DNA of 64,000 nucleotides from Bacteroidaceae bacterium (GTDB lineage: Bacteria > Bacteroidota > Bacteroidia > Bacteroidales > Bacteroidaceae): positions 1 through 64,000 of the forward strand of contig JAILDV010000017.1 of NCBI GenBank assembly GCA_024688885.1, written 5' to 3'. The notes beneath the pieces were generated by a model. It searched no databases and was not told where the DNA came from. It saw nothing but the letters and a program-made list of their open reading frames with translations. The first letter of the stretch is position 1; each line of letters starts with the position of its first letter. The translations under genes and the position numbers were made by a program. Positions 3,925-17,720 of the stretch are shown here, in pieces.

Positions 3925-4002
3925 AGGGGCGTAGCCCAGCTGGTTTAGAGCGCTGCAGTCACATTGCAGAGGTCATCGGTTCGAACCCGATCGTCCCTAC
4001 CA
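3925..4002 (+). tRNA. tRNA-Val (anticodon CAC)
   Basis: A 78-nt cloverleaf with encoded CCA. The acceptor aggggcg pairs with cgtccct (one G-U), anticodon stem ctgca/tgcag encloses the loop gtcacat (anticodon CAC), T-arm atcgg-ttcgaac-ccgat is perfect and the discriminator is A, as in valine tRNAs. The D-stem (gccc/gagc) has one C-A mismatch. It decodes GUG. It has its own promoter and a strong terminator directly after. Confidence 0.9.
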
Positions 4003-4057: not shown

Positions 4058-4218
4058 TTTATTTAAGTTTCGCAAGTGCTCAACTTCTTTGGGAGTTAAG
4101 GAGTTATCAGTTCGTTCAGGAGTTAAGCCGTTACCTTGCAAATGAGATTCCCACCAGCCTGAGTATCGGCTTAACTACTTAACTACTGACTACTTAACCA
4201 CTTCTGAAACTTGAGTTA
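4058..4218 (-). repeat. dispersed ~160-bp repeat, copy A
   Basis: Read on the minus strand this is almost the same as 46442-46607 on the plus strand. Shared blocks include ggaatctcatttgcaaggta and agttaagtagtcagtagtta. A stem gttaagccg / cggcttaac encloses the middle part. The copy begins inside the last codons of the cbiA C-terminal ORF and so supplies its final residues (about ITQVSEVVK). No ORF or transposase. Confidence 0.85.
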
Positions 4219-4780
4219 TTTTATATATATGTGTGTAGCTTGCCAACACATTCTTATACTTGAACACGGGAGTGGGCACTGGGTTGTCTTTGGCATCATA
4301 AACCTGCACGATGGATGAGGGTGTTTCACCGAGGAACTGGGTGTAGTGGAACTCATGACCACAATATTCCTTTCCGTCAAGGGTGAAACGGCGATAGCCA
4401 AGGGAGAGTTTACGGTCTGCTTTTCGGGCTGTGATTGTGTAGGGCAATACGCCACACATGGGGTACTCACCCTCGTCAGTGACAATACTTTGACAGAGAT
4501 ATATCATGCCACCGCACTCTGCAATGATGCGCCCTCCCCTTTCTGCATAATCACGGATGCATTTCCTCGTCCGCTCTGCCTTCACCAATGCCTCCAAATG
4601 TTTTTCGGGATAGCCACCGGGGAGATAGAGCAGGTCGCAGTGGCTCAAATCGGGCACTTCCTTTTCAGGGTCGAAGAAGGTCAGACTACCCTCCTGCACC
4701 CATCGGTCAAGGTTCTCTTGATAGTAGAAAGAGAACGACTCGGCATTTCGTGCCATTACAACATTAACAGCTTTTCCCAT
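4190..4780 (-). CDS. cbiA: cobyrinate a,c-diamide synthase, C-terminal amidotransferase half
   Basis: 196 residues that correspond to the glutamine amidotransferase domain of CbiA/CobB. It opens with the domain-linking segment VNVVMARNAESFSFYYQENL, then LYLPGGYPE, the catalytic-Cys motif IIAECGGMIYL and the HEFHYTQ region. Intact CbiA is one chain of about 450 residues; here the two halves are in different frames and overlap by 25 bases (4756-4780). A -1 shift at the gggaaaag stretch (4771-4778) would join them with no missing residues. So this is either a recent frameshift, programmed frameshifting, or a genuine two-subunit version with this ATG. The final ~9 residues come from a dispersed repeat. 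Confidence 0.85.
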   Translation of the reverse strand: MGKAVNVVMARNAESFSFYYQENLDRWVQEGSLTFFDPEKEVPDLSHCDLLYLPGGYPEKHLEALVKAERTRKCIRDYAERGGRIIAECGGMIYLCQSIVTDEGEYPMCGVLPYTITARKADRKLSLGYRRFTLDGKEYCGHEFHYTQFLGETPSSIVQVYDAKDNPVPTPVFKYKNVLASYTHIYKITQVSEVVK

Positions 4781-5511
4781 TGCACGTTCTCTTCTAATAG
4801 TTTCACCAAGGTCTCATTCTTCGCCTCTTCTGAAAAGTCAAGTCCCAAATAGCGTGAACCCTGTTCCAACTCCGGATGCTTGGGAAGGAATCCGAAACAC
4901 TCCACTTGCAAGTCGTCGCACACCTGTTGAAGCATCTCCCGATGTCGCTCGGAACCCACTTTGTTGAAAATGACACCAGCGATGTTGAGAGTTGACAGTT
5001 GAGAGTTGACAGTTGACAGTTGAGAGTTGAGAGTTGACAATTGACAGTTGACAGTTGAGGGTTGGGAGTTGGGAGTTGAGGGTTGGGAGAAGGTGGGTGT
5101 GAAATGGAGAAAGCCATGAAGAAGGGCTGCCATTGAATAGGCAGCAGACTTGGCATCGACGACCAGCACCACTGGCACATTGAGCACACTCGCTATCTCT
5201 GCCGAGGAGCCTTTGTCGCGGTCGTAGCCATCAAACAAGCCCATCATACCCTCCACGATGCACACATCGGCATCTGCACCGTAGTGGACGAAGAGTTCCT
5301 TCACATGTTCTCTCGATGCCATGAAGGTGTCGAGATTGATGCTCGGACGTCCACACACCGCTGCATGGAACTTGGTGTCGATGTAATCTGGTCCGCATTT
5401 GAAGGGCTGCACCTTCATTCCCTTTTTCACCAGCAACGCCATCAGCCCTCGGGCAATCGTTGTCTTGCCCGAACCACTTGTAGGTGCTGATATGAGGAAA
5501 GAATGTTTCAT
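4756..5511 (-). CDS. cbiA: cobyrinate a,c-diamide synthase, N-terminal ATPase half
   Basis: 251 residues. The P-loop FLISAPTSGSGKTT, FKCGPDYID and IVEGMMGLFDG are signatures of the CbiA/CobB ATP-dependent synthetase domain, which amidates the a and c carboxylates of (cobalt-)corrinate. Residues 142-176 (PSTPNSQPSTVNCQ...) are not family sequence: they are five heptapeptides encoded by 15 tandem 7-nt units (4984-5088). The frame stops at 4756 where the glutamine amidotransferase half takes over in another frame. The promoter TACCTTTG ends only 7 bases before the ATG, so the mRNA is nearly leaderless. Divergent from the riboswitch-led operon. Confidence 0.88.
   Translation of the reverse strand: MKHSFLISAPTSGSGKTTIARGLMALLVKKGMKVQPFKCGPDYIDTKFHAAVCGRPSINLDTFMASREHVKELFVHYGADADVCIVEGMMGLFDGYDRDKGSSAEIASVLNVPVVLVVDAKSAAYSMAALLHGFLHFTPTFSQPSTPNSQPSTVNCQLSTLNSQLSTVNSQLSTLNIAGVIFNKVGSERHREMLQQVCDDLQVECFGFLPKHPELEQGSRYLGLDFSEEAKNETLVKLLEENVQWEKLLML
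4984..5088 (-). repeat. heptanucleotide array inside cbiA (15 units)
   Basis: Plus-strand units gttgaga/gttgaca/attgaca/gttgagg/gttggga, 15 in a row with no interruption. Read from the coding (minus) strand they give the heptapeptide N-S/C-Q-L-S-T-L/V five times. 105 nt keeps the frame. Confidence 0.95.
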
Positions 5512-5518
5512 TTGAATG

Positions 5519-5526
5519 CAAAGGTA
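5519..5526 (-). promoter_or_regulatory. promoter -7 box (TACCTTTG) of cbiA
   Basis: Minus-strand TACCTTTGcattcaaATG: the box ends 7 bases before the start codon at 5511, implying a leader of only a few bases. Confidence 0.65.
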
Positions 5527-5536
5527 GTATTTCCAA

Positions 5537-5648
5537 ATTGATAATTGACAATTGAGAATTGAGAATTAGCCATTCGGAACGCCTTTTTTACAGAAAACGG
5601 GCTAAACAGCAAAATAAATATCAATTGTCAATTGTCAATTATCAATTA
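5537..5648. repeat. inverted pair of heptanucleotide arrays in the cbiA/riboswitch gap
   Basis: Four units attgata/attgaca/attgaga/attgaga (5537-5564) face four units tcaattg/tcaattg/tcaatta/tcaatta (5621-5648). The two 28-base arms are almost complementary and could pair. The right arm ends only 5 bases before the riboswitch promoter box, so it overlaps the expected -33 region. Confidence 0.8.
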
Positions 5649-5653
5649 ATTAT

Positions 5654-5661
5654 TATCTTTG
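5654..5661 (+). promoter_or_regulatory. promoter -7 box (TATCTTTG) of the riboswitch operon
   Basis: TATCTTTGccaccgaa directly precedes the cobalamin riboswitch; the same 16-base word begins the toxin-antitoxin promoter at 20.14 kb. No clear TTTG at -33, where the heptamer array sits. Confidence 0.65.
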
Positions 5662-5665
5662 CCAC

Positions 5666-5822
5666 CGAATTTGGTAATCGAGCATATCGATGCAAGGGAA
5701 TCAGGTGAGAAACCTGAGCTGTACCTGCAGCTGTAATCCCCTCTTTTGAACATCTGTTCACACCAAGCCACTGAGGAATCGGGAAGGCGGACAGACAGGG
5801 GGAAAGCCAGAAGACCTGCCAA
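5666..5822 (+). ncRNA. cobalamin riboswitch
   Basis: Core elements appear in order: a 5' stem with gaaacctgagctgtacctgcagc, the L5/J-region, then the conserved gccactg...atcgggaaggc and the B12-box agccagaagacctgcc (ending near 5820). It precedes a TonB receptor and the corrinoid operon, so repression by adenosyl- or methylcobalamin is expected. A small hairpin (cacgca 5844-5849 / tgcgtg 5858-5863) between the aptamer and the likely start codon at 5879 may be part of the expression platform. Confidence 0.93.
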
Positions 5823-5878
5823 AGCACTATAAAAAGATGTACGCACGCACAGGGACATGCGTGGTAACACACACATTT

Positions 5879-8017
5879 ATGAGAATATTGATGATGGGAT
5901 TGGCACTCATGTGCCTCACCCAGACATTGTTGGCACAAGACGTTCTGAAGGAAGACTCCCTGCAAGAAGTAGTCGTTACAGGTACTGGCACCCAGCACCT
6001 GCTGAAAGATGCGCCCGTGCAGACAGAGGTCATCAACAAACAAATGTTGCAAAACTATAGCGGTCAGTCTCTGGAGGACATTCTCGGAGGACTTACATCT
6101 TCTTTTTCGTTTAACGAGGGGGACATGGGCAGTCAGATGCAAATGAACGGACTGGGCAACAACTACATCCTCATCCTCATCAATGGCAAACGCATTCACG
6201 GAGACAACGGAGGCGAGAACGACCTCGGACTCATTGACCCACACAACATCGAGAAGATTGAAATTGTGAAGGGAGCCTCTTCTGCACTCTACGGTTCCGA
6301 TGCCATCGCTGGTGTCATCAACATCATCACCAAACGTCACGACACCGATGGGTTTCTGTTGGAGAACACCACACGCGGCGGCTCATACGGTAAACTGCGT
6401 CAACACAATGGCATTGCGTTCAACTTCGGGAAACTGAAAAGCTACACCAACTTTCAGCTGCAGCACTCTGACGGATGGCAGAACACTTCCAGAGAAGACC
6501 CCCATCAGACAGAGTTCCTCATCACCGACTCACGCAACAAGACCGTCAGCAGATACACCAATTGGCAAGTGTCAGAACACCTCACTTATGCCCTCAATGA
6601 GAACATCGAACTCTATGCTGACGGCAGCATCTACCGCAAACGCATCTACCGACCCAGCGGCAAACACCCAGGAGTGGATGTGAAAACCTATGACCTGCGC
6701 TACAACAACGCATCGGCATCGGCAGGGGGCAAGTGGCAGATGAACAACACCGACTTCATCACCCTCGATGTGGATTGGAATCGGCATGCCTATTACTACG
6801 ATTTCACAGCAGTCACCCTCACCGATGGCTACGTGAATGGCGAGCACACCTCCTACTTCCCTTATTACCCTGGACAACATCAGTTGCAGAGCGACCAGCA
6901 GCGCACCATGGCACATCTGAAAGGAGTGTTCACCCTACCCTACGAGAACCGTCTCAGCACGGGCATCGAATGGCGGTACGACTGGTTGAAGGCACCCACC
7001 CGAGTGGAAGGAGGCAAAGCGACTGACAACACAGGCGCTCTTTACGTACAGGACGAATACACCCCTGTGGACTGGTTCAATGTGACAGCAGGACTGCGCC
7101 TCAACCGCAACGAGCAGTTCGGTTGGCACCTCACACCAAAAGTGTCCACGATGATCAAGTGGAATGATTTGCGTTTCCGTGCCACATGGAGCCAAGGTTT
7201 CAAGACCCCTACTCCTAAAGAGCTCCACTACCAGTATGTGCGCAACATGAACGGCACCTATCTTTTCCTTGGCAACACACACCTCAAGCCACAAGCCAGC
7301 AACTACTTCTCCTTGGGCGTTGAGTACAATCACGGAGGCTTCTCCGCCACTGCCACAGGCTACTACAACCAGGTGAACGATATGATTGCCCTCGTCACCA
7401 TCCCCAACAGCGAAGCACCCATCGACCTCTACACCAAGTATCTGCCCATCAAAACGAGGAAATACCAAAACCTCGAGACCGCCAAGACCTACGGTGTGGA
7501 CATCACCCTGCGCTACCGCATCAACAGAGAGTGGACAGCAGGACTTGGCTACAGCTATCTGGACACTGATGCAGAGCTGTACGACACAGAAGACGATGCC
7601 CTGCACAGTGTCATCATCGACGGCATGGCACACCACAAGGGGAATTGTTTTCTGACATGGAACCACACGATGAAAAATGAGAACACATGGGGAGCAGGCA
7701 TCTACGGAAGAGCATCCACCAAACGATACTATCAGTTGAACGGCAACGGAAAAGGCTACCAGCTCTGGCGACTCACAGGCACCCATACCTTCAGCTACAA
7801 GCGGGGCAAGCAGAAGCCCCTCACCTTCCAACTTGAGGCTGGTGTGGACAACATCTTCAATTATACAGACAAAACCGACCACGGCCTGCATTTGGGCACC
7901 ACTACACCCGGCACCACCCTTTATGCAGCCTTCACGGTGCGGTTCAATCACGGCAAAAAACTTATCCACAACTATAAGTCTAACTCTTTAAATCAAAATG
8001 AAAATGAAGACAATTAA
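5879..8017 (+). CDS. TonB-dependent receptor, probable corrinoid importer
   Basis: About 712 residues. I chose the ATG at 5879 because it gives a clean signal peptide (MRILMMGLALMCLTQTLLAQ); an in-frame ATG at 5837 would add 14 residues encoded by the leader hairpin. A TonB box (LQEVVVTGTG) is followed by a plug domain with NGLGNNYILILINGKRI and SSALYGSDAIAGVINIITK, then a 22-strand-type barrel ending with an aromatic/charged C-terminus. Control by the cobalamin riboswitch directly upstream makes corrinoids the likely cargo (BtuB role), although the family also includes haem receptors such as HmuR. The 3' end overlaps cbiK by 20 bases. Confidence 0.88.
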   Translation: MRILMMGLALMCLTQTLLAQDVLKEDSLQEVVVTGTGTQHLLKDAPVQTEVINKQMLQNYSGQSLEDILGGLTSSFSFNEGDMGSQMQMNGLGNNYILILINGKRIHGDNGGENDLGLIDPHNIEKIEIVKGASSALYGSDAIAGVINIITKRHDTDGFLLENTTRGGSYGKLRQHNGIAFNFGKLKSYTNFQLQHSDGWQNTSREDPHQTEFLITDSRNKTVSRYTNWQVSEHLTYALNENIELYADGSIYRKRIYRPSGKHPGVDVKTYDLRYNNASASAGGKWQMNNTDFITLDVDWNRHAYYYDFTAVTLTDGYVNGEHTSYFPYYPGQHQLQSDQQRTMAHLKGVFTLPYENRLSTGIEWRYDWLKAPTRVEGGKATDNTGALYVQDEYTPVDWFNVTAGLRLNRNEQFGWHLTPKVSTMIKWNDLRFRATWSQGFKTPTPKELHYQYVRNMNGTYLFLGNTHLKPQASNYFSLGVEYNHGGFSATATGYYNQVNDMIALVTIPNSEAPIDLYTKYLPIKTRKYQNLETAKTYGVDITLRYRINREWTAGLGYSYLDTDAELYDTEDDALHSVIIDGMAHHKGNCFLTWNHTMKNENTWGAGIYGRASTKRYYQLNGNGKGYQLWRLTGTHTFSYKRGKQKPLTFQLEAGVDNIFNYTDKTDHGLHLGTTTPGTTLYAAFTVRFNHGKKLIHNYKSNSLNQNENEDN

Positions 8018-9164
8018 GTATCTCATGATGGCAGCAGTAGCCCTCATGACAGCTATGAGCTTCACCGCTTGCAGCGATGACGACAATGACGACTCATCAA
8101 ACTATCAGAAGTATCAACAGGAAGTGACCAACATGGTCAACAAGCAAAAGCAGCACGAAAAGGTCATCCTGCTCGTGGCATTCGGTTCCACTTGGCAGCA
8201 GGCTTACGACACTTTCGAGAAGGTGGTGGACGACTACAAAACCAACTTCCCAGAATGGGACGTGTATCTCTCTTTCTCTTCCATCGAGTGCATCAACAAT
8301 GCCCGTGCAGGTGAAAACACCACCCCCAAGAGTTACTATGACCCCGAGCACTGGCTCAATGCCATCGGTCAGGCAGGTTACAAGCAGGTTGTGGTGCAGT
8401 CACTTCAGGTCATCCCAGGTGAGGAATACCGCAACGTGCGTGACTCTTATGTCAAGAACTTCATGAACAACAAGAACGGCAACTTCACTACTGCCTACCT
8501 GAAGAGCCTCGACCGCAATGTGGTGATTGGCACACCTCTTATGGCAGAAGAAGAAGATGCTGAAGCACTCGCCAATGTACTCAACAAGGAGAGCGACATC
8601 AAGGCTGCTGTTGCTGAAGGCATCGTGGCATTCATGGGACATGGTAACCCAGAAGGCTATGACTACTATGGTGGTAACATCCGCTATGTACAGTTGGAAC
8701 AGTATCTGCGTGCCATCAACAAGAACTACTATGTAGGCACAGTTGACATGGATCAGACTTTGGTGGACGACGTGCTGGAGAATATTGCTGGTCGTGACAT
8801 CACTTATCAAGTAGGTGCCATCAGCATAGACGTGACTTACGCAGAAAACACTGCAAAGAAGGCACAGCTCTACCCACTCATGTCTATCGCCGGTGACCAC
8901 GCTCACAACGACATGGCTGACGATGAGGATGAAGAAAGTTGGTACTCAATGTTCAATGCAGCAGGCATTGAGACAGCTGCTTATGAGACCACTTTCAAAG
9001 AGGCTTGTTGGAAGAAGTATAAGGCTGGTGATGATTACATCCCTGCACTTGCCGAGCGCTCTGCTGTGCGCAAGCTCTGGATGAACCACACCAAAGACGC
9101 CATCGAAAAGTTAGGTACAGAAGATGCACTCTCTACACCTACCACTGCTCCTGACGAAGAATAA
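7998..9164 (+). CDS. cbiK: CbiK-family chelatase lipoprotein (IhtB-like)
   Basis: 388 residues. A lipoprotein signal peptide ends at the lipobox FTAC (Cys25) and is followed by SDDDNDD, an acidic tail like the Bacteroidetes surface-export signal. The mature part matches the anaerobic cobaltochelatase CbiK: ILLVAFGSTWQQAYDTFEKV at the start, MGHGNPEGYDYYGG with a metal/acid-base His (H215), and AGDHAHNDMADDEDEESW with the second His (H301). Cytosolic CbiK inserts Co2+ into sirohydrochlorin. Exported relatives include Desulfovibrio CbiK-P and Porphyromonas IhtB, a haem-binding outer-membrane lipoprotein. Its place between two TonB receptors suggests handling of tetrapyrrole or metal at the cell surface rather than biosynthesis. 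Confidence 0.88.
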   Translation: MKMKTIKYLMMAAVALMTAMSFTACSDDDNDDSSNYQKYQQEVTNMVNKQKQHEKVILLVAFGSTWQQAYDTFEKVVDDYKTNFPEWDVYLSFSSIECINNARAGENTTPKSYYDPEHWLNAIGQAGYKQVVVQSLQVIPGEEYRNVRDSYVKNFMNNKNGNFTTAYLKSLDRNVVIGTPLMAEEEDAEALANVLNKESDIKAAVAEGIVAFMGHGNPEGYDYYGGNIRYVQLEQYLRAINKNYYVGTVDMDQTLVDDVLENIAGRDITYQVGAISIDVTYAENTAKKAQLYPLMSIAGDHAHNDMADDEDEESWYSMFNAAGIETAAYETTFKEACWKKYKAGDDYIPALAERSAVRKLWMNHTKDAIEKLGTEDALSTPTTAPDEE

Positions 9165-9185
9165 GCAAATGTGATTAAAATATCA

Positions 9186-11255
9186 ATGTTAAAAAAAGTG
9201 TTATTAGTGGCGGCGCTCTCATGCGGGAGCGCCGCTTTTGCCCAGATACACAAGATGGAGCATCGCGACTCCACTGTGACTGAGCGCAACTACAACCTCA
9301 ACCCTGTCGTCGTGACAGGTTCGGGACATCACCAACGACTCAAATCGACTGCAACTCCCGTGCGTGTACTCTCTGCCCAAGAGATTCACGAGCAGGGCAT
9401 CAGCACCTTCGATGGCGCATTGACACGCATGATGCCACAGGTGTCTATGGCCCCCAACTCGATGGGCACATTCCTCCGTCTGAACGGATTGGGCAACAAG
9501 TACATCCTCATCCTCATCAACGGACAGAAACTGACGGGCGACATTTCCAACAACGTCGATTTGAACCGCATCAATATGGCTCGCGTGAAGCGCATTGAGG
9601 TGCTGGATGGAGCGGCTTCGTCGCTCTACGGAAGTGATGCCATTGCAGGTGTCATCAACATCATCACCGACCAACCCACCCAAAACCTTGTCAGTGTGAC
9701 CAGCGACACACGTTTTTCTGGGAAAGGGCAACTGACAGAAGCTGTCACCCTGGACTTCTTCACCCATGGTTTCGGTTCCTACACCTCCTTCACCCACGAC
9801 CGTGCAGACAGTTACCGCATCAATGGTTTGGAGTATGTGAAAGGCTCCGACTCTGAAACACAGCCCAGCATTGCTCCCCTCTTCACGGGTTACCGCTCCA
9901 GCATCGTAGGACAGAAGTTCACCTATGCGCCCAACAACAAGTTAGCTCTGAATGCTGGTTTTGACTATTCATATAAGATTACCGACCGTCCCAACACCAA
10001 CCCCGACGTGACGGGTGGCACCGATTATGAGATGCAGTACAAGGGGTTCCGCTGGAATGTGGGTGGCATCTACAAATTCACCGCCAAGAATTCCCTGCAA
10101 GCCACTTTCACTGCCGACCGTTTCCGTTACGGCAAAGATTATGATGTGGCAACCAAGAGCAACGAGGTGGGCGACTTCGTGCTGTCGAAGAAGCAGCATG
10201 CCTACGAGACCGACGTGAAGAGCATTTTGGAACTGGTGAAAGGCGGTACCACCATCTTCGGCATGAACTGGCGAAAGGACTGCCTCTTTGCCACATCGGG
10301 CAACATTGACCAGAGTGCCCACACTCTCGCCTTCTACGGTCAGCACGAACAGAAGTTTCTGCAAGACTTCACAGCGACAGTAGGTGCTCGCATCACCCAC
10401 CACGAGAATTTCGGCAACCACTTCACGCCAAAAGCCACGCTGATGTATGCACCCGGAGCATTCCGTTTCCGTGCCACCTACTCCGCAGGTTTCCGTGCAC
10501 CAGGACTGGACGAACTCTACTATCATTACTACTCCGTCAATCGCGGCAAGCCCCAAATCTCGTTTGGCAACAGCAACCTCAAGCCAGAGAAGAGCAACTA
10601 CTTCTCCCTCAACGCCGAGTACCACACGGACAAGCTTTTGGTGAGTGTGACGGGTTACATCAACCGTATCAACGACATGGTAGTGAAGCAGAATGTGGAC
10701 GTGGATGACCACTCGCTCGCCATGCTGCAGGAAGAGTTTCCTGAGATGACAGAGGCAGAAGCTTCCAAACTGGCAAGCTATGCCCTCTATCAAAACAGCG
10801 ACAAAGGTGACGTGAAGGGTGTTCAGGTGAATGTGTCCGCCAATCTGTTCCAAGGTTTCAACCTTTCCGCCAACTGGGCTTATGCGTATGCTCGTACTAA
10901 GAGCGGTGAGGAATGGAGTGTATTGGAGCGCAGCATCCGTAACGCTGCCACCATCGCTGCCAATTACCACCACACATGGGGACCATATGCGCTGAACGTG
11001 AACCTGAATGGTCGTCTGCAATCGACAACCTACTACACAGGCTCGTATGAAGACGCCCCTGGTTTCGGCATCTGGAACCTCCAGACCACACACACATTCG
11101 ACTGTGCCACATGGGCACTCCTTGAACCCAGCATCGGCATCGACAACCTCTTCGACAAGACCGACCACCGTATCGATTCATCAGTGCGCAAGTTTGCCCT
11201 CTTCAATCCGAGACGTATGTTAGTGATTGGGCTGAAGGTCAAGTTTAAGAACTAA
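9186..11255 (+). CDS. second TonB-dependent receptor of the corrinoid operon
   Basis: About 689 residues from the ATG at 9186, which gives the signal peptide MLKKVLLVAALSCGSAAFAQ; a GTG 15 bases upstream is also possible. TonB box NLNPVVVTGSG, plug domain with NGLGNKYILILINGQKLTGD and SSLYGSDAIAGVINIIT, barrel ending RMLVIGLKVKFKN. It is related to the receptor at 5.9-8.0 kb (same plug motifs, same EKSNYFSLNAEY-type barrel segments) but clearly divergent, so the two may take different corrinoids or one may take a porphyrin. It starts about 20 bases after cbiK, so the three genes are probably one riboswitch-controlled unit. Confidence 0.88.
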   Translation: MLKKVLLVAALSCGSAAFAQIHKMEHRDSTVTERNYNLNPVVVTGSGHHQRLKSTATPVRVLSAQEIHEQGISTFDGALTRMMPQVSMAPNSMGTFLRLNGLGNKYILILINGQKLTGDISNNVDLNRINMARVKRIEVLDGAASSLYGSDAIAGVINIITDQPTQNLVSVTSDTRFSGKGQLTEAVTLDFFTHGFGSYTSFTHDRADSYRINGLEYVKGSDSETQPSIAPLFTGYRSSIVGQKFTYAPNNKLALNAGFDYSYKITDRPNTNPDVTGGTDYEMQYKGFRWNVGGIYKFTAKNSLQATFTADRFRYGKDYDVATKSNEVGDFVLSKKQHAYETDVKSILELVKGGTTIFGMNWRKDCLFATSGNIDQSAHTLAFYGQHEQKFLQDFTATVGARITHHENFGNHFTPKATLMYAPGAFRFRATYSAGFRAPGLDELYYHYYSVNRGKPQISFGNSNLKPEKSNYFSLNAEYHTDKLLVSVTGYINRINDMVVKQNVDVDDHSLAMLQEEFPEMTEAEASKLASYALYQNSDKGDVKGVQVNVSANLFQGFNLSANWAYAYARTKSGEEWSVLERSIRNAATIAANYHHTWGPYALNVNLNGRLQSTTYYTGSYEDAPGFGIWNLQTTHTFDCATWALLEPSIGIDNLFDKTDHRIDSSVRKFALFNPRRMLVIGLKVKFKN

Positions 11256-11307
11256 GAAGGGACAAGGTGGAAGCATAAGCCATTCACTTTAAGCGCAGTA
11301 GCAAATT

Positions 11308-11336
11308 TTTCACTTTTCACTCTTCACTTTTCACTT
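11308..11336 (+). repeat. heptanucleotide array (ttcactt units)
   Basis: Four or so consecutive units of ttcactt/ttcactc in the gap before cbiH-cbiC, just upstream of its promoter. Confidence 0.75.
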
Positions 11337-11344
11337 TATTTCCC

Positions 11345-11352
11345 TATCTTTG
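11345..11352 (+). promoter_or_regulatory. promoter -7 box (TATCTTTG) of cbiH-cbiC
   Basis: TATCTTTGcatccgtATG: the box ends 7 bases before the start codon. The biosynthetic genes can therefore start from their own nearly leaderless transcript, independent of the riboswitch 5.6 kb upstream. Confidence 0.65.
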
Positions 11353-11359
11353 CATCCGT

Positions 11360-12805
11360 ATGAAAAAGATTATCGTTGCAGGCATCGGACCAGGAAGTCC
11401 CGACGACATCACGCCAGCAGTCATCAAAGCTGTGGGCGAAGCTGATGCCGTGGTGGGTTACAAATACTACTTCCAGTTCATCACTCCCTATCTGAAGCCC
11501 GGATGCGAGTGCATCGACACGGGTATGAAACATGAACGCGAACGTGCTGAACAAGCCTTTCAATTGGCAGAAGAAGGCAAGACCGTTGTGGTCATCTCTT
11601 CTGGCGATGCTGGCATCTACGGCATGACACCGCTCATTTATGAAATGAAGCGAGAACGGGCGAGCGACATTGAGGTGGCTTCTTTAGCAGGCATCTCCGC
11701 TTTTCAGAAAGCAGCTTCCCTGCTCGGTGCTCCTGTGGGGCATGATTTCTGTGTCATCTCATTATCCGATTTGATGACACCATGGGAGGTCATCGAACGG
11801 CGCATCAAGGCTGCCGCCATGGGCGACTTTGTGACGGCTGTCTATAATCCCAAATCAAACGGACGTTACTGGCAACTCTATCGTCTGCAGGAAATCTTTC
11901 TGCAAGAACGTGCTGGCAACACACCCGTGGGATATGTGCGACAAGCAGGACGGCCAGAACAGGAGGTGACCATCACCACCCTCTCCGACTTCGACCCCGA
12001 AGCTGTCGATATGTTCACCGTGGTGCTCATTGGCAACTCGCAGTCCTATCAGTGGAACGACAAGATGATTACTCCACGAGGCTACTACCAGGCCCCCTCC
12101 AACTCCCCCAAGGGGGAGAGAGACTGTCCGGATGGAATCCTCCCCCCATGGGGGGATAAGAAGGGGGCTCTCATCATGATGGAGTCGTTCCGCACCATTG
12201 AGAGTGAACTGCAACACAAAGATTATCCCCTTGACCACAAATGGGCGCTTCTCCATGCTATCCATACCACTGCCGACTTCGACATGGAGAGCATTCTCCA
12301 CACAGACAAGGAAGCTGTTTCCACATTATATAATAAAGTAAAAGATGGAACACTGACCACCATCATCACAGATGTCACGATGGTAACCAGTGGCATTCGG
12401 AAAGGAGCCTTGCAACGCCTCGGCATCGAAACCAAGTGTTACCTCAGTGACCCACGTGTAGCAACGATGGCTATGGACAAGGGCATTACACGCACACAGG
12501 CAGGCATTCGTCTCGCCGTGGAGGAACACCCCGATGCCCTCTTCGCTTTTGGCAATGCGCCCACCGCCCTCATGGAACTCTGTGACCTCATCCGCAAGGG
12601 GAAGGCACACCCTGCCGGCATCATCGCCGCACCTGTCGGTTTCGTGCATGTGAAGGAGTCGAAGCACATGGTCAAGCCCTTCAAGGACATCCCCAAAATC
12701 ATTGTCGAAGGACGTAAAGGAGGCAGCAACCTCGCCGCCACTTTGTGCAACGCCATTCTCACGTTCGACGATGCAGCGCAATTAAAACCAGGAAGAGACC
12801 TTTAG
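11360..12805 (+). CDS. fusion of precorrin-3B C17-methyltransferase and precorrin-8 methylmutase
   Basis: 481 residues in two domains. Residues 1-245 are CbiH/CobJ (VAGIGPGSPDDIT, SSGDAGIYGM, ...TAVYNPKS), the SAM-dependent ring-contraction methyltransferase. Residues 272-481 are CbiC/CobH, which moves the C11 methyl to C12; the likely catalytic His is in LLHAIHTTADFD (H302). The junction (about 246-271, SNSPKGERDCPDGILPPWGD) is encoded by a GC-rich palindromic repeat (12091-12170) and looks like a foreign linker. First gene of four consecutive bifunctional corrinoid enzymes. Confidence 0.93.
   Translation: MKKIIVAGIGPGSPDDITPAVIKAVGEADAVVGYKYYFQFITPYLKPGCECIDTGMKHERERAEQAFQLAEEGKTVVVISSGDAGIYGMTPLIYEMKRERASDIEVASLAGISAFQKAASLLGAPVGHDFCVISLSDLMTPWEVIERRIKAAAMGDFVTAVYNPKSNGRYWQLYRLQEIFLQERAGNTPVGYVRQAGRPEQEVTITTLSDFDPEAVDMFTVVLIGNSQSYQWNDKMITPRGYYQAPSNSPKGERDCPDGILPPWGDKKGALIMMESFRTIESELQHKDYPLDHKWALLHAIHTTADFDMESILHTDKEAVSTLYNKVKDGTLTTIITDVTMVTSGIRKGALQRLGIETKCYLSDPRVATMAMDKGITRTQAGIRLAVEEHPDALFAFGNAPTALMELCDLIRKGKAHPAGIIAAPVGFVHVKESKHMVKPFKDIPKIIVEGRKGGSNLAATLCNAILTFDDAAQLKPGRDL
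12091..12170. repeat. palindromic element inside cbiH-cbiC
   Basis: Contains two palindromes, ctccccc-aa-gggggag (12103-12118) and tcccccc-at-gggggga (12141-12156), with outer ccccctcc and aaggggg ends. It stays open in the reading frame and falls exactly between the two enzyme domains. The first palindrome also occurs, with a tt loop, at 3055-3070. Confidence 0.85.
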
Positions 12806-12808
12806 AGA

Positions 12809-12857
12809 GTTGACAATTGACAATTGATAGTTGACAATTGACAGTTGATAGTTGACA
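12809..12857. repeat. heptanucleotide array (7 units) between cbiH-cbiC and cbiE-cbiT
   Basis: Seven adjacent units gttgaca/attgaca/attgata/gttgata fill almost the whole 62-base gap between the two genes. Confidence 0.9.
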
Positions 12858-12867
12858 GTTAGAAATT

Positions 12868-14079
12868 ATGATTAGATTCATTGTCATAGGCATCACCGAC
12901 CATCCACAACCTTTCTTTCCTCCGGAAGTATTGGAGGTCATCAAGAACGGGAAGGTATTCTCTGGCGGCAAACGGCATCATGAGATTGTAAAGTCCCTGC
13001 TTCCTAAAGATGCAGAGTGGATTGACATCACCGTACCTCTCGATGCAGTATTTGAACAATACCAACTGTCAACTCTCAACTCTCAACTCTCAACTGTCAT
13101 CGTCTTTGCCAGTGGCGACCCGCTGTTTTTCGGCTTCGCCAATACCATTCAACGAAAGATGCCAGAGGCGAACATTGTGGTATATCCAACCTTCAATTCA
13201 TTGCAGATGCTGGCTCACCGCCTCTTGATGCCCTATCACGATACGCGCATTGTTTCTCTCACTGGCCGTCCTTGGCAGGAATTTGACCGTGCTCTGATTG
13301 AGGGTACAACGAAGATGGGTGTTTTGACAGACAAGGAACACACCCCTGCCGCCATCGCCCAGCGTATGCTTGACTATGGCTACAAGGACTATCTGATGCA
13401 TATCGGCGAGCACCTTGGCAACCCTGAGAAAGAAAGAGTCACATCACTTCCGCTCGAAGCCGTGACAGAACAGGATTTTGCCAATCCCAACTGCCTCATC
13501 CTCATTGGAGAGCATCCAGGCCGATGGGGTATTCCCGATGAAAAATTCGCGCTATTGGACGGTCGCGAGAAGATGATCACCAAGATGCCCATCCGTCTTC
13601 TCACGCTACAAGCCCTTGATTTGCCCCACCGCCATGTGGTGTGGGACATCGGTTTCTGTACCGGAAGCGTGAGCATCGAAGCCCGTCTGCAGTTTCCCCA
13701 CCTCGACATTGAGGCTTTTGAAATCCGTCCTGAATGTGAGGCCATCATCCAAGAAAATGCCCGTCGATTCCATTGCCCTGGCATCAATATCCACATGGGT
13801 GACTTCATGCAGACAGACGTGGCTTCGTTGCCTCGTCCCGATGCAGTCTTCATCGGTGGGCATGGGGGATTGCTCAAGGAAATATTGGCAAAGGTCTTAA
13901 CGGTGTTGACAGACGATGGCATCATTGTATTCAACAGTGTCATTGCCCCCAAAGTCAACATTGACAGTCATCAACTTTGGAACGAGGCATGCGCGGAATT
14001 AGAACTCAAGCAGGATTCGCCTACAAAGATACAACTTAACAACCATCATCCCATCACTATCCTACGATGCAGAAAATAG
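12868..14079 (+). CDS. cobL: precorrin-6B C5,15-methyltransferase/decarboxylase (CbiE-CbiT fusion)
   Basis: 403 residues, the usual CobL length. Residues 1-205 are CbiE (VIGITDH, FASGDPLFFG, TFNSLQMLAHRL), the C5 methylase; residues 210-403 are CbiT (DIGFCTGSVSIEA as the SAM loop), the C15 methylase and C12 acetate decarboxylase. Residues 66-77 (QLSTLNSQLSTV) are encoded by five 7-nt units (13063-13097) placed just before the conserved FASGDPLFFG strand. The CbiT glycine loop reads GFCTGS rather than the usual GAGTGS. Its end overlaps the next gene by 13 bases. Confidence 0.93.
   Translation: MIRFIVIGITDHPQPFFPPEVLEVIKNGKVFSGGKRHHEIVKSLLPKDAEWIDITVPLDAVFEQYQLSTLNSQLSTVIVFASGDPLFFGFANTIQRKMPEANIVVYPTFNSLQMLAHRLLMPYHDTRIVSLTGRPWQEFDRALIEGTTKMGVLTDKEHTPAAIAQRMLDYGYKDYLMHIGEHLGNPEKERVTSLPLEAVTEQDFANPNCLILIGEHPGRWGIPDEKFALLDGREKMITKMPIRLLTLQALDLPHRHVVWDIGFCTGSVSIEARLQFPHLDIEAFEIRPECEAIIQENARRFHCPGINIHMGDFMQTDVASLPRPDAVFIGGHGGLLKEILAKVLTVLTDDGIIVFNSVIAPKVNIDSHQLWNEACAELELKQDSPTKIQLNNHHPITILRCRK
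13063..13097 (+). repeat. heptanucleotide array inside cobL (5 units)
   Basis: Units caactgt, caactct x3, caactgt. It has the same sequence family and the same sense relative to the coding strand as the array inside cbiA. Confidence 0.95.
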
Positions 14080-15842
14080 CCATCATCCCCATCAGCGAGA
14101 CAGGCAGTGACATCGCCTCGATTTTGCAACGCCAACTGAACGCCAAGACCATCCAGCGCACTCAAGTAAGTGCCAAGTGGAATCATTTCGATGCCTTCAT
14201 CTTCATTGGAGCCATGGGCATCTGCGTGAGAACCATTGCCCCCCTTGTGGAGGACAAGCACAAAGACCCTGCGGTGGTGTGTGTGGACAGCCTCGGTCAA
14301 CATGTCATCGCTGTGCTTTCCGGTCACGTGGGAGGGGCAAACGAACTCACTCGTCAGGTAGCCTCCATCCTTGGTACCGATCCTGTCATCACCACCCAAA
14401 GCGACAATGCTGGTCTTTGGGCACTGGACACGTTCGAGCAGCGTTTCGACTGGCCAATAGCGAGTGAGGTGGAGGACATGAACGACTGCATCTTTGCTTT
14501 TGTCAATCGTCAACCCACGGCATTGCTGATGGATGTGAGAGATGAAGGAACCGATTATCTGGAGAAGACGATTCCTGACCATGTGACGATTATTAACGAC
14601 ATCAAGGATGCCACACCCGATCAATACAAACTGCTCATCATCGTGTCACCTATCAGTCATATGTACCCGAACGACATGCTGGTGCTGCACTTCGTTCCGA
14701 TGGTGGGGACAATCGGCTTTGGATTGGCACATCATCCTAAGGACTATGAGTATATCTACGATGAGATAAACGAGGCAATAGCGGATCTTGGCATCTTACC
14801 ATGTGCCCATCGCTACTGCACCATTGACGTGAAGGCTGACGAGCCATTCGTGAAGGATTTGCAGGAATTGTATCAAGAAGAAGTCGTGTTCTTCACCGCT
14901 GATGAACTGGCAAAGGTGGAAGTGCCCCATCCAAGCCCAACGGTGGAGAAACATGTGGGTACGCCCAGTGTCTGCGAAGCGGCAGCCATCTTAGGCTCCC
15001 ATCACGGCAAACTCATCGTTCCTAAAGTCAAGGGGAAGAACTGGACGGCAGCCCTTGCCATTGACGAGAAATATCTAAGAACACAAAAGGGGCACATTGA
15101 GATTGTGGGTGCAGGACCTGGCGACCCCGACTTGGTGAGTGTTCGCGGAAGGAAGATGTTGGAAAGAGCCGACCTCATCCTTTATGCAGGTTCTCTGGTG
15201 CCCAAAGCATTGACGGAATGTCACAAACGGGGAGCGGTGGTGAGAAGCAGCGCAGACATGAACCTTGAGGAGCAGTGTGCCCTGATGAAGGAGCACTACG
15301 ACAAGGGACATTTCATCGTGCGTCTGCACACGGGAGACCCCTGCATCTTTGGTGCCATTCAGGAGCAGATGGCCTTTTTCGACCAGCACCGGATGTCCTA
15401 CCACATCACTCCAGGCATCTCATCTTTCCTCGCTGCTGCCGCAGAACTGAGAAGCCAGTTCACGATTCCCGAACGCACTCAAACCATCATTCTCACCCGT
15501 GGAGAAGGGCGAACCCCCATGCCAGAGAAAGAGCAACTGCACCTTCTCGCCAAGAGCCAGAGCACCATGTGCATCTTCCTCAGTGCCGCCATTGTGGATG
15601 ACGTACAAAGAGAACTCCTGCAAGAATACCCTGCCGACACACCTGTCGCAGCATGCTATCACCTCACATGGCCTGACCAGAAAATCTATCGTGGTCAACT
15701 CCAAGACCTCGCCAAAATCGTTCACGACCATAATCTGACACTGACCACTATGCTCGTCGTGGGCGAAGCCATTGACAACCGTCAAGGTCTCTCCGAACTC
15801 TACAACAAATACTTCACTCACCTCTTCCGTAAAGGAGAATAG
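14067..15842 (+). CDS. CbiG - precorrin-4 C11-methyltransferase (CbiF/CobM) fusion
   Basis: 591 residues. Residues 1-335 are CbiG (FIGAMGICVRTIAPL, VLSGHVGGANELTR, GTDPVITTQSDNAG), which opens the delta-lactone and releases acetaldehyde in the cobalt-early route. From about 343 the chain is CbiF/CobM (IVGAGPGDPDLVSVRG, LHTGDPCIFGAIQEQ), the C11 methylase. CbiG has no counterpart in the aerobic route, so this gene marks the anaerobic pathway. It overlaps cobL by 13 bases and ends 3 bases before the next gene. Confidence 0.93.
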   Translation: MQKIAIIPISETGSDIASILQRQLNAKTIQRTQVSAKWNHFDAFIFIGAMGICVRTIAPLVEDKHKDPAVVCVDSLGQHVIAVLSGHVGGANELTRQVASILGTDPVITTQSDNAGLWALDTFEQRFDWPIASEVEDMNDCIFAFVNRQPTALLMDVRDEGTDYLEKTIPDHVTIINDIKDATPDQYKLLIIVSPISHMYPNDMLVLHFVPMVGTIGFGLAHHPKDYEYIYDEINEAIADLGILPCAHRYCTIDVKADEPFVKDLQELYQEEVVFFTADELAKVEVPHPSPTVEKHVGTPSVCEAAAILGSHHGKLIVPKVKGKNWTAALAIDEKYLRTQKGHIEIVGAGPGDPDLVSVRGRKMLERADLILYAGSLVPKALTECHKRGAVVRSSADMNLEEQCALMKEHYDKGHFIVRLHTGDPCIFGAIQEQMAFFDQHRMSYHITPGISSFLAAAAELRSQFTIPERTQTIILTRGEGRTPMPEKEQLHLLAKSQSTMCIFLSAAIVDDVQRELLQEYPADTPVAACYHLTWPDQKIYRGQLQDLAKIVHDHNLTLTTMLVVGEAIDNRQGLSELYNKYFTHLFRKGE

Positions 15843-15845
15843 CGC

Positions 15846-17720
15846 ATGATTCTTGTTTTTGGCGGCACAACCGAAGGCCGCAAGACCATAGAAGCACTGG
15901 AAGAGGCGGGAAACCCCTTCTATTACAGCACAAGGACGGGCGAACAAAAAGTGACGCTCCATCATGGCATTGCGATTAGTGGCACCATGGACGGTGATGC
16001 CATGATCACCTTCTGCCAAAAGCACGATATCAAGCTGTTGGTAGATGCCGCCCATCCCTTTGCTGAGGTGTTACATCAAACGGTAGCTGAAGTGGCGAAA
16101 AGCATGAACATTCCTGCCATCAGGTTTGAACGTATCTTTCCAGAAAGAGATCCAGACATCGTATGGTTGGATGGATACGAGGATGCGGTAAAGACAATCA
16201 AGGAAAAAACGCTGCTTGCCACTACTGGTGTACAAAGCATCAGTAAATTGAAGCCCTTGGAAGAGCAAGGGGTAAAAGTAATGTATCGTATCTTACCAAG
16301 GGAATCGTCTATCCAATCAGCACTTCAACAGGGGGCAACCCACGACCAGCTCTGCTTCTATGAGCAAAACGCCTGCGAGGATCACCAAGAGTCCCAAAAT
16401 CGACATCGTCGACGTCGGTTTGCCGATGTCGTCGATGTCGGTTCACCGATGTCGACGACATCGATTCAGAGGTTGTGGAAGGAGGGCGAAGGAGATGTTG
16501 AGTACGAGGCAGTCTTGATGAAAGAAAGTGGGGAAACAGGAGGCTTTGTAGAGAAAGTGAAAGACGCAAAAAGGATGGGCATGAAACTCTATGCCATCAA
16601 ACGCCCAGAAACGCCCAAAATCTTTCACCAAGTGAATGGTGAGCACGGCTTGCGACGGATGGTCGAGAAACTCTTGCCCGAGTTCTTTCCCCTGCACAGC
16701 GGACTCACCACAGGAACCTGTGCCACTGCTGCAGCCATCGCCGCAACAAAGCGCATGCTGACAGGGGAAACGCCCGACGAGGTGCCCGTCATCCTTCCAA
16801 ATGGCGAAACCATCATGGTGGCAGTCAGTTATGCCGACGGCTACGCTTACTGCATCAAGGAGGCAGGCGATGACCCCGACGTGACCGATGGTATTGAAGT
16901 GAGGGCAAAGGCTGAGAAAGCGGCTCAATTTGTGATATGTGGCGGTGAAGGAGTGGGCAGATTCACCCTGCCAGGCTTCGACTACCCTATCGGTGAACCA
17001 GCCATCAACAAGGCTCCTCGCCAAATGCTACGCCAAAATCTGGAGAAACTCCTAACTCCTAACTCCAAACTCCTAACTCTAAAAGTCACCATCAGCGTCC
17101 CCAACGGAGCCGATATCGCCCGCAAGACCTTCAACCCCCGTCTCGGAATCGAAGGAGGCATCAGCATCATTGGTGTTTCAGGCATCGTGAAGCCCTTTAG
17201 TGAAGAGGCTTTCATTGAGAGCATCCGCAAGTGCATGGAGGTGGCAAAAGCAAGTGGCGCCGACCGCATCGTTCTCCACAGCGGCATGAAGAGTGAGGGC
17301 TTCCTTCAGCAGCACTACCCCAACCTGCCTCAGCAAGCGTTCGTGGAATACGGCAATGCCATCGGAGCCACCTTGCAAATCGCTAACGAGCTCGACATCC
17401 CTCGCATCGCCCTCGGCATCATGTTGGGTAAGGCAGTGAAGCTGGCAGAAGGACATCTCGACACCCACAGCAAGAAGCAGACGATGAACAAGGCGTTCAT
17501 CGCCGAGATGTTGAAAGAAGCTGGATGCAAAGAGGAAATCGTCAAAGTGAACGGCATCACCTTGGCAAGAGAATTGTGGGGCATCATCCCCTCCGAACAG
17601 ATAGAAACCTTTTGCCGCACAGTCATCCGCCATTGCCTGAAACATTGTGAACCACTCCTGCCGAACGGAGAACTGACTATTCTACTGATTGATGACGTCG
17701 GAACAATCCACTCGCTATGA
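15846..17720 (+). CDS. precorrin-6A reductase (CbiJ/CobK) - CbiD C1-methylase fusion
   Basis: 624 residues. Residues 1-255 are CbiJ/CobK (ILVFGGTTEGR, DAAHPFA), the NADPH-dependent ring reductase; from about 273 the chain is CbiD (SGLTTGTCATAAAIAA, TISVPNGADIARKT, FNPRLGIEGGISIIGVSG), the C1 methylase of the anaerobic route. Two stretches are not family sequence: residues ~183-209, encoded by a ~69-bp near-palindrome (16399-16467), and residues 402-413 (LLTPNSKLLTLK), encoded by five 7-nt units (17049-17083). The last 42 bases are repeated at 20244-20285, next to btuC. Confidence 0.92.
   Translation: MILVFGGTTEGRKTIEALEEAGNPFYYSTRTGEQKVTLHHGIAISGTMDGDAMITFCQKHDIKLLVDAAHPFAEVLHQTVAEVAKSMNIPAIRFERIFPERDPDIVWLDGYEDAVKTIKEKTLLATTGVQSISKLKPLEEQGVKVMYRILPRESSIQSALQQGATHDQLCFYEQNACEDHQESQNRHRRRRFADVVDVGSPMSTTSIQRLWKEGEGDVEYEAVLMKESGETGGFVEKVKDAKRMGMKLYAIKRPETPKIFHQVNGEHGLRRMVEKLLPEFFPLHSGLTTGTCATAAAIAATKRMLTGETPDEVPVILPNGETIMVAVSYADGYAYCIKEAGDDPDVTDGIEVRAKAEKAAQFVICGGEGVGRFTLPGFDYPIGEPAINKAPRQMLRQNLEKLLTPNSKLLTLKVTISVPNGADIARKTFNPRLGIEGGISIIGVSGIVKPFSEEAFIESIRKCMEVAKASGADRIVLHSGMKSEGFLQQHYPNLPQQAFVEYGNAIGATLQIANELDIPRIALGIMLGKAVKLAEGHLDTHSKKQTMNKAFIAEMLKEAGCKEEIVKVNGITLARELWGIIPSEQIETFCRTVIRHCLKHCEPLLPNGELTILLIDDVGTIHSL
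16399..16467. repeat. near-palindromic element inside cbiJ-cbiD
   Basis: About 69 bases made of alternating cgacatcg/cgatgtcg words; the sequence is close to its own reverse complement from end to end. It interrupts the CobK domain between FYEQN and the EYEAVLMKESG motif and adds an Arg-rich segment (RHRRRRFADVV). Confidence 0.85.
17049..17083 (+). repeat. heptanucleotide array inside cbiD (5 units, stop avoided)
   Basis: Units ctcctaa, ctcctaa, ctccaaa, ctcctaa, ctctaaa. A pure ctcctaa array gives a TAA codon once every 21 bases; here the one in-frame TAA would be at 17067-17069, and exactly that codon is AAA. Confidence 0.95.

Follow-up and report, generated by a model that had tools for sequence, protein, structure and literature searches.

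This study concerns a group of cobalamin (B12) biosynthesis genes in a 64,000-nt stretch of DNA (bases 1-64000 of contig 11, referred to below as the window) from a Prevotellaceae draft genome (3.03 Mb, 68 contigs, 98% complete) that is close to rumen bins. A preliminary description of this sequence had proposed that five corrinoid enzymes encoded there are interrupted in frame by dispersed repeats, and we found the five segments where it had placed them. Three are 7-nt (heptamer) arrays (in CbiA, CobL and CbiD, by TRF) and two are palindromes (in CobK and at the CbiH-CbiC junction, by BLAST). The region is laid out as follows:

3925-3999: tRNA gene adjoining the cobalamin genes
4190-4780, minus strand: glutamine-amidotransferase part of cbiA, an overlapping open reading frame (ORF) of its own (Pfam GATase_3, 6e-32)
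4756-5511, minus strand: cbiA, nucleotide-binding part of cobyrinate a,c-diamide synthase, 251 aa (Pfam CbiA, 4.6e-19)
4984-5089, minus strand: 7-nt array in cbiA, coding strand CAACTCT/CAACTGT, residues ~142-176 (TRF)
5536-5647, no strand assigned: inverted pair of 7-nt arrays, intergenic, a potential long hairpin (DNA fold z -7.2)
5655-5837, plus strand: cobalamin riboswitch preceding the plus-strand genes (Rfam RF00174, 80 bits)
7998-9164, plus strand: cbiK, cobalt chelatase, 388 aa, without insert (Pfam CbiK, 4.6e-40)
11307-11337, plus strand: 7-nt array (TTTTCAC), intergenic, before cbiH-cbiC (TRF)
11360-12805, plus strand: cbiH-cbiC fusion, 481 aa (Pfam TP_methylase, 4e-41; CbiC, 8e-67)
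12092-12169, plus strand: GC-rich palindrome R2 at the CbiH-CbiC junction, residues ~245-270 (BLAST)
12808-12860, plus strand: 7-nt array, intergenic, directly before cobL (TRF), 28 nt longer in comparison locus L039
12868-14079, plus strand: cobL (CbiE-CbiT), 403 aa (Pfam TP_methylase)
13063-13099, plus strand: 7-nt array in the CbiE part of cobL, residues 66-78 (TRF)
14067-15842, plus strand: cbiG-cbiF fusion, 591 aa, without insert (Pfam)
15846-17720, plus strand: cobK-cbiD fusion, 624 aa (Pfam CbiJ, 2e-43; CbiD, 5e-85)
16396-16482, plus strand: palindrome R1 in cobK, residues ~184-213 (BLAST)
17047-17083, plus strand: 7-nt array (AACTCCT) in the cbiD part, residues 401-413 (TRF)

For comparison we used the best 80 of 276 loci found (numbered with L; most are metagenome-assembled, judging by their record titles). 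The nearest relative of the window CobL among the named records found is the uncultured Prevotellaceae RUG204 (L039, 96%). In alignments of the window proteins (up to 48 rows listed per block, the compared rows being 47-97% identical), all five inserts are in frame and the loops of relatives are shorter at these places; none of the rows listed has the same residues without the repeat DNA. At the CbiA site, L040 reads HFREDIPIAGV where the window reads HFTPTFSQPS...LNIAGV, and L040 has no array, while the array in L039 is 21 nt longer than that of the window. Residues ~177-217 of CobK are present, among the rows listed, only in the window, L039, L010, L011, L012, L013, L025 and L040. In the CobK-CbiD structure model (mean pLDDT 84), the sole segment below 50 is 174-217, the palindrome insert, which we take to be disordered, and the CbiD insert (401-413, block pLDDT 67) is placed between a helix (389-400) and a strand (411-417). 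Residues 220-399 of CobL match precorrin-6Y methyltransferase structures; these solved-structure alignments reach CobL only from residue 220 and are therefore silent on its insert. The preliminary description had seen no such insert in secA, thrS, infC or other conserved genes; among the gene calls of the window, interior 7-nt arrays are restricted to cbiA, cobL and cobK-cbiD. The DNA of the heptamer, R1 and R2 inserts is in each case multi-copy in the genome.

Heptamer inserts recur at the same sites across species. Counting a site as periodic when its best lag gave at least 12/14 matches, and dropping rows that could not be anchored (4/80 at CobL site 1, 41/80 at CobL site 2, 12/62 for CbiD and 27/62 for a third, CobK site), we found lag-7 periodicity at CobL site 1 (after VFEQY) in 35 of 76 anchored orthologs and none at another strong lag. 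Shuffled DNA of this site reached the threshold in 5/1520 shuffles, 0 of them at lag 7. The CbiD site was periodic at lag 7 in 16/50 orthologs, the second CobL site in 8/39 (with 2 more at lag 9) and the CobK site in 11/35 (2 more at lag 8). The unit varies by species (CAACTCT, CTCTCAC, TCTTCAC, AATGTTC, CAATGGT, CAATTAT, ATTCCTC and others), and in PrmC and RsmF (31 rows each), too, fixed loops are refilled by differing repeats in members of the genus. CobL site 1 was short in 11 and non-periodic in 27 of the 72 orthologs scored; the equally long non-periodic loops (e.g. 11 residues) may be decayed inserts. Of the 23 CobL sites that could be read in other genera of the family, 18 are 4-6 residues long, and one of the 5 longer ones is periodic at lag 7; most of the genomes concerned have few or no copies of the CAACT repeat. 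Presence of the insert is unclumped on a quick CbiG-CbiF tree (26 changes vs a shuffled mean of 24.0 for CobL site 1; 15 vs 15.2 for CbiD), which points to rapid turnover or to recombination. L040 is 94% identical to the window in CobL and just 67% in CobK-CbiD, which suggests that its operon may be a mosaic.

Heptamer arrays also lie between genes. The heptamer pattern has 439+298 matches in the host genome at up to 2 mismatches; the backwards pattern (476+354 matches) is the same repeat in another register and is no control. The CAACT repeat occurs in 35/121 genomes of a family search and exceeds 100 matches only in G000, G029, G030 and G043 (here too the backwards pattern, being the same repeat, gives no control). 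In 39 loci with both kinds of array, the insert unit matched an intergenic array of the same locus in 35/106 cases, against a permuted mean of 18.2 and a maximum of 31 in 300 permutations ("intergenic" meaning here outside the retained conserved ORFs). Close pairs of 7-nt arrays are inverted in 15/22 cases (random expectation 9%), forming hairpin elements (e.g. L122, L130, L158, L143 and window 5536-5647), and the ORFs of Mfd (L143) and RNase H (L125) also contain such pairs. As a side observation, the motif TAnnTTTG, which we take to be a Bacteroidetes -7-like motif, lies within 45 nt past 35 of 206 intergenic array ends (e.g. window 11307-11337 and 5621-5647), as compared with 250/4000 random intergenic positions; 24 of the 35 motifs are 5-11 nt from the array, and the pyrimidine strand predominates (28 vs 7). 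Intergenic arrays may thus sit at promoters.

For the palindromes we used a genome sample of 864 kb (40 stretches plus the window), with codon-score based, uncurated gene calls, as for the relatives and the pathway test below. R1 has 37 own-genome matches on both strands, at 19 places by our count, and R2 has 48, itself and partial matches included. The DNA fold of R1 has a z of -3.9 and that of R2 a z of -1.3, 22/200 shuffles being equally good. R1 lies in 2 genic and 5 intergenic places of the sample; besides cobK, its hosts include a GSCFA and a glycerate kinase gene. R2 lies in 11 genic places and 1 intergenic place, window copy included, a small count in which several matches are partial (30-45 nt); since gene calls fill 85% of the sample (734,076/864,000 nt), R2 gives no sign of avoiding genes. 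Its hosts by Pfam include alanyl-tRNA synthetase, a Mur ligase-alanine racemase fusion (twice), RNase HII, a topoisomerase and an M20 peptidase, and further DPP IV, GH95, ROK and DUF3316 proteins. By eye, an unscored peptide pattern, SP-GG..PDG..SP-G, recurs among the 11 genic places, again with several matches partial, and an exploratory peptide-pattern search for R2-like inserts gave 8 matches in conserved ORFs of the loci. Separately, a 12-bp palindrome, CCATCCGGATGG (at most 1 mismatch), has 19 sites in the sample (e.g. L145:9583, L130:7786, L157:6944), where 41 control palindromes have a mean of 1.7 and a maximum of 10. By eye, 7 sites lie in R2, 4 in elements with AAAAGTG arms, 4 in elements with ACGAATT arms and 4 elsewhere. 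We rejected it as a universal core: the 80 loci have just 5 sites (controls mean 2.5, max 18), and five other genomes together have a single one (mean 1.1, max 5), which makes the core lineage-specific at most.

Much of this repeat DNA is compatible with coding. Because 7 leaves a remainder of 1 on division by 3, a heptamer array gives the same peptide from any entry frame, three units (21 nt) reading as a fixed 7-residue peptide, and only the total length must fit. All 8 heptamer units tested are stop-free over three units in one orientation, with one or two stops in the other, and in the sample the pyrimidine strand predominates among genic arrays (19 vs 8). All 9 R2 copies tested have 5 or all 6 reading frames open. 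In 18 genic length comparisons, which are not independent, 11 arrays were unchanged and 7 changed, 7/7 by multiples of 3 and two by exactly 21 nt. Of 7 intergenic comparisons, 6 were unchanged and 1 changed by 28; at gene edges, 2 of 5 were unchanged and 3 changed, 2 of these not by multiples of three, so that 1/4 of the non-genic changes was divisible by 3. Measured against L039 (BLAST shadow-frame matches of L270 vs L246 being set aside), dN/dS was 0.07-0.18 for CbiHC, CobL, CbiGF, CobK-CbiD and CbiA and 0.10 for cbiK, and the CobL frame is open in 80/81 sequences. Most host genes are thus under purifying selection, as far as these small numbers go. Median codon adaptation was 0.485 for 23 insert-bearing genes and 0.520 for 523 others (P 0.005), which lends weak support to low expression of insert-bearing genes; in the window, the four cobalamin ORFs with an insert score 0.447-0.484, and the three without score 0.509 (CbiG-CbiF), 0.519 (amidotransferase) and 0.742 (CbiK), which is in keeping with this, on seven genes.

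The preliminary description had further held that inserts are concentrated in one pathway. For heptamers the excess is real: in the sample plus a second locus, interior arrays (7, 14 or 21 nt) occur in 7/13 cobalamin genes and in 20/575 other genes of at least 100 aa (P 3e-7). The window contributes 3/7; the second cobalamin locus (contig 39), which was reached through a family search and had played no part in the preliminary description, has 4/6 (CobQ, CbiB, CobU and CobT; P 3e-5). Genes below 100 aa (18/600, including an array-bearing HPPK gene) were left out, and the interior margin was 60 nt, or 45 nt in L270, whose gene ends were set by hand. Among the 20 non-cobalamin genes, 11 were Pfam-scanned; several of the other 9 have period-14/21 arrays that look doubtful, which makes the comparison conservative. 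In 400 kb of five relatives, 111,755 aa contained 12 interior arrays, of which CobU and CobT of G029 account for two. The 80 loci plus the window, where slightly different array criteria allow only a rough comparison with these relatives, gave 59 arrays per 33,669 conserved aa in CobL (46/80 ORFs), 36/37,379 in CobK-CbiD, 15/38,444 in CbiH-CbiC, 3/13,245 in CbiA and 0/46,816 in CbiG-CbiF. The FecCD permease (0/58) and CobS (0/24) ORFs, each family named from one member, also had no array. Exclusive targeting of the pathway, in contrast, is ruled out by arrays in unrelated enzymes and by the palindromes, R2 being found in the sample in nine other genes with Pfam domains. By Pfam, the array-bearing genes outside the pathway include PrmC-like and RsmF methyltransferases, an Asp/Glu racemase (presumably MurI), RNase H and HPPK (FolK), as well as TRCF (Mfd), a PLP decarboxylase, a sulfatase, a metallophosphatase and DUF4954. 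The heptamer excess is therefore neither exclusive to the pathway nor even within it.

We consider it probable that the inserts stem from dispersed intergenic repeats, both heptamer arrays and the two palindrome families, which got into genes in frame and survived where they were tolerated. Repeats would insert widely and most insertions would be removed; the survivors would be those that are stop-free, a multiple of three long, and in a permissive loop of a weakly expressed enzyme. The most inserts would be retained by cobalamin enzymes, as these would be needed only in very small amounts and offer several permissive loops; inserts would then lengthen, shorten and decay via point mutation into ordinary-looking loops. 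We infer that the cobalamin excess reflects tolerance rather than targeting. A more specific version is plausible, though we would put it at somewhat below even chances: the heptamers would be a standing supply of protein-compatible intergenic DNA, with cobalamin loops as the main sink, filled, grown in 21-nt steps and decayed, owing to a tolerance or need specific to B12.

Several observations weigh against this explanation. Genes for alanyl-tRNA synthetases, Mur ligases and alanine racemases are usually essential, and R2 is carried by an alanyl-tRNA synthetase and the Mur ligase-alanine racemase fusion. CbiG-CbiF has a 7-, 8-, 14- or 21-nt array in 0/77 ORFs although its dN/dS is like that of its neighbours. 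R1 is less coding-friendly than the other repeats (2 of 6 frames open in 3/7 copies), the amidotransferase half of CbiA has a dN/dS of 0.31, and the codon-adaptation gap is small. At the CbiA site, comparison with L040 suggests that about 5 native residues were replaced, not a clean insertion. At the CbiD site, the loop of an archaeal CbiD structure (1SR8) is just two residues shorter, which speaks in part against plain insertion there; the 4-residue Prevotella form may not be the ancestral one. The CobL model (pLDDT 73.5) is too poor for placing its insert, and the tree may be misled by recombination (cf. L040). Finally, mobilization as REP elements by a RAYT (Y1) transposase is unsupported, as a Y1_Tnp search of the draft genome gave 0 matches over the curated cut-off and two weak ones (22.5 and 21.3 vs 23 bits).

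Other explanations fare less well. The best of them, which we regard as unlikely, is a selected function, in which the inserts tune protein level, tether a multi-enzyme assembly or add an RNA or DNA signal to the operon. This would account for a strong pathway excess at two separate loci and for the refilling of the same loops in many species. However, insert sequence, family and length vary by species and many orthologs have no insert (the short and non-periodic loops at CobL site 1), the CbiG-CbiF, FecCD permease and CobS families have no arrays, and unrelated enzymes also carry inserts. Relaxed selection, with cobalamin genes decaying in a B12-rich rumen and gathering insertions on the way to pseudogenes, is less probable still: it would fit the pathway excess, the splitting of CbiA into two ORFs and the raised dN/dS of the amidotransferase half, but not the low dN/dS of the other cobalamin ORFs, with or without inserts, nor the open CobL frame in nearly every sequence. 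We give very little weight to phase variation, by which 7-nt slippage would shift the frame and toggle cobalamin enzymes. The unit is indeed not a multiple of three, and some arrays vary by whole units between near relatives; yet all genic length changes kept the frame in the non-independent comparisons above, the CobL and CbiD arrays have just ~5 units, and the palindromes could not act in this way. An artefact of metagenome-bin assembly, suggested by the origin of most loci, is highly improbable, as inserts turn up at the same site in strain-titled records (L050, L054 and L068; P. ruminicola KHT3, Prevotella sp. tf2-5 and ne3005) and the CobL insert is equally long in the window, L039 and L040.

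The survival of tolerated repeats thus remains our preferred explanation, and the preliminary description had likened the inserts to Rickettsia palindromic elements (RPE). RPE are described as dispersed palindromes that lie in frame within metabolic genes unrelated to one another and encode a conserved peptide, nearly half of them being genic in R. conorii by the account cited (PMC10969869). As a working analogy the comparison suits R1 and R2, both of which are scattered over the genome and lie in frame within genes of differing families, with a palindromic fold that is clear for R1 and weaker for R2. To judge by this description, the inserts may work like RPE. The present elements differ in their phylum, free-living host and length (under ~100 nt), in the heptamer arrays found besides and in the excess of arrays in one pathway. 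The analogy does not extend to the 7-nt arrays, as single arrays are direct repeats and not palindromes; only the pairs are inverted. The arrays are closer to the TAACTGA heptamer repeats of Beggiatoaceae, cyanobacteria and some Bacteroidetes, which are likewise many-copy 7-nt direct repeats and, in one genome, lie mostly just upstream of starts (PMC4679880). What that paper stresses is intergenic placement (PMC4679880), whereas here arrays also lie within conserved enzymes and are read as a 7-residue peptide. Within Bacteroidota, Porphyromonas gingivalis has MITEs and BrickBuilt, a minisatellite within an inverted-repeat element (PMC4596501, PMC10969869); BrickBuilt is described there as strictly intergenic (PMC10969869), unlike the present repeats, which are genic too. 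PINSR, like the present repeats dispersed in Prevotella, is given as a 188-bp intergenic repeat without inverted ends (PMC4755523). Among the papers listed in our literature searches, which covered open-licence PMC only, we saw no report of in-frame heptamer or palindrome inserts in Prevotella.

Selfish DNA that sits in frame within genes is known chiefly from Rickettsia and is often explained there by genome reduction. Here the hosts are free-living gut bacteria and the same loops are filled in dozens of species, so that the birth, growth and decay of repeat-derived protein segments can be traced by comparison. Prevotella gene finders and structure models should expect such segments. The findings also raise the question of why B12 enzymes retain so many inserts; if the heptamers are indeed a standing supply of protein-compatible DNA, this would amount to ongoing protein innovation from repeats.

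Two further observations concern the genes of the region. In the window, two TonB-dependent receptors flank cbiK, and cbiA consists of two overlapping ORFs (4190-5511). Longer cbiA ORFs in other loci (L045, L062, L063 and others) have a 22-nt or 11-nt repeat at residue ~225-255, positionally the inter-domain linker.

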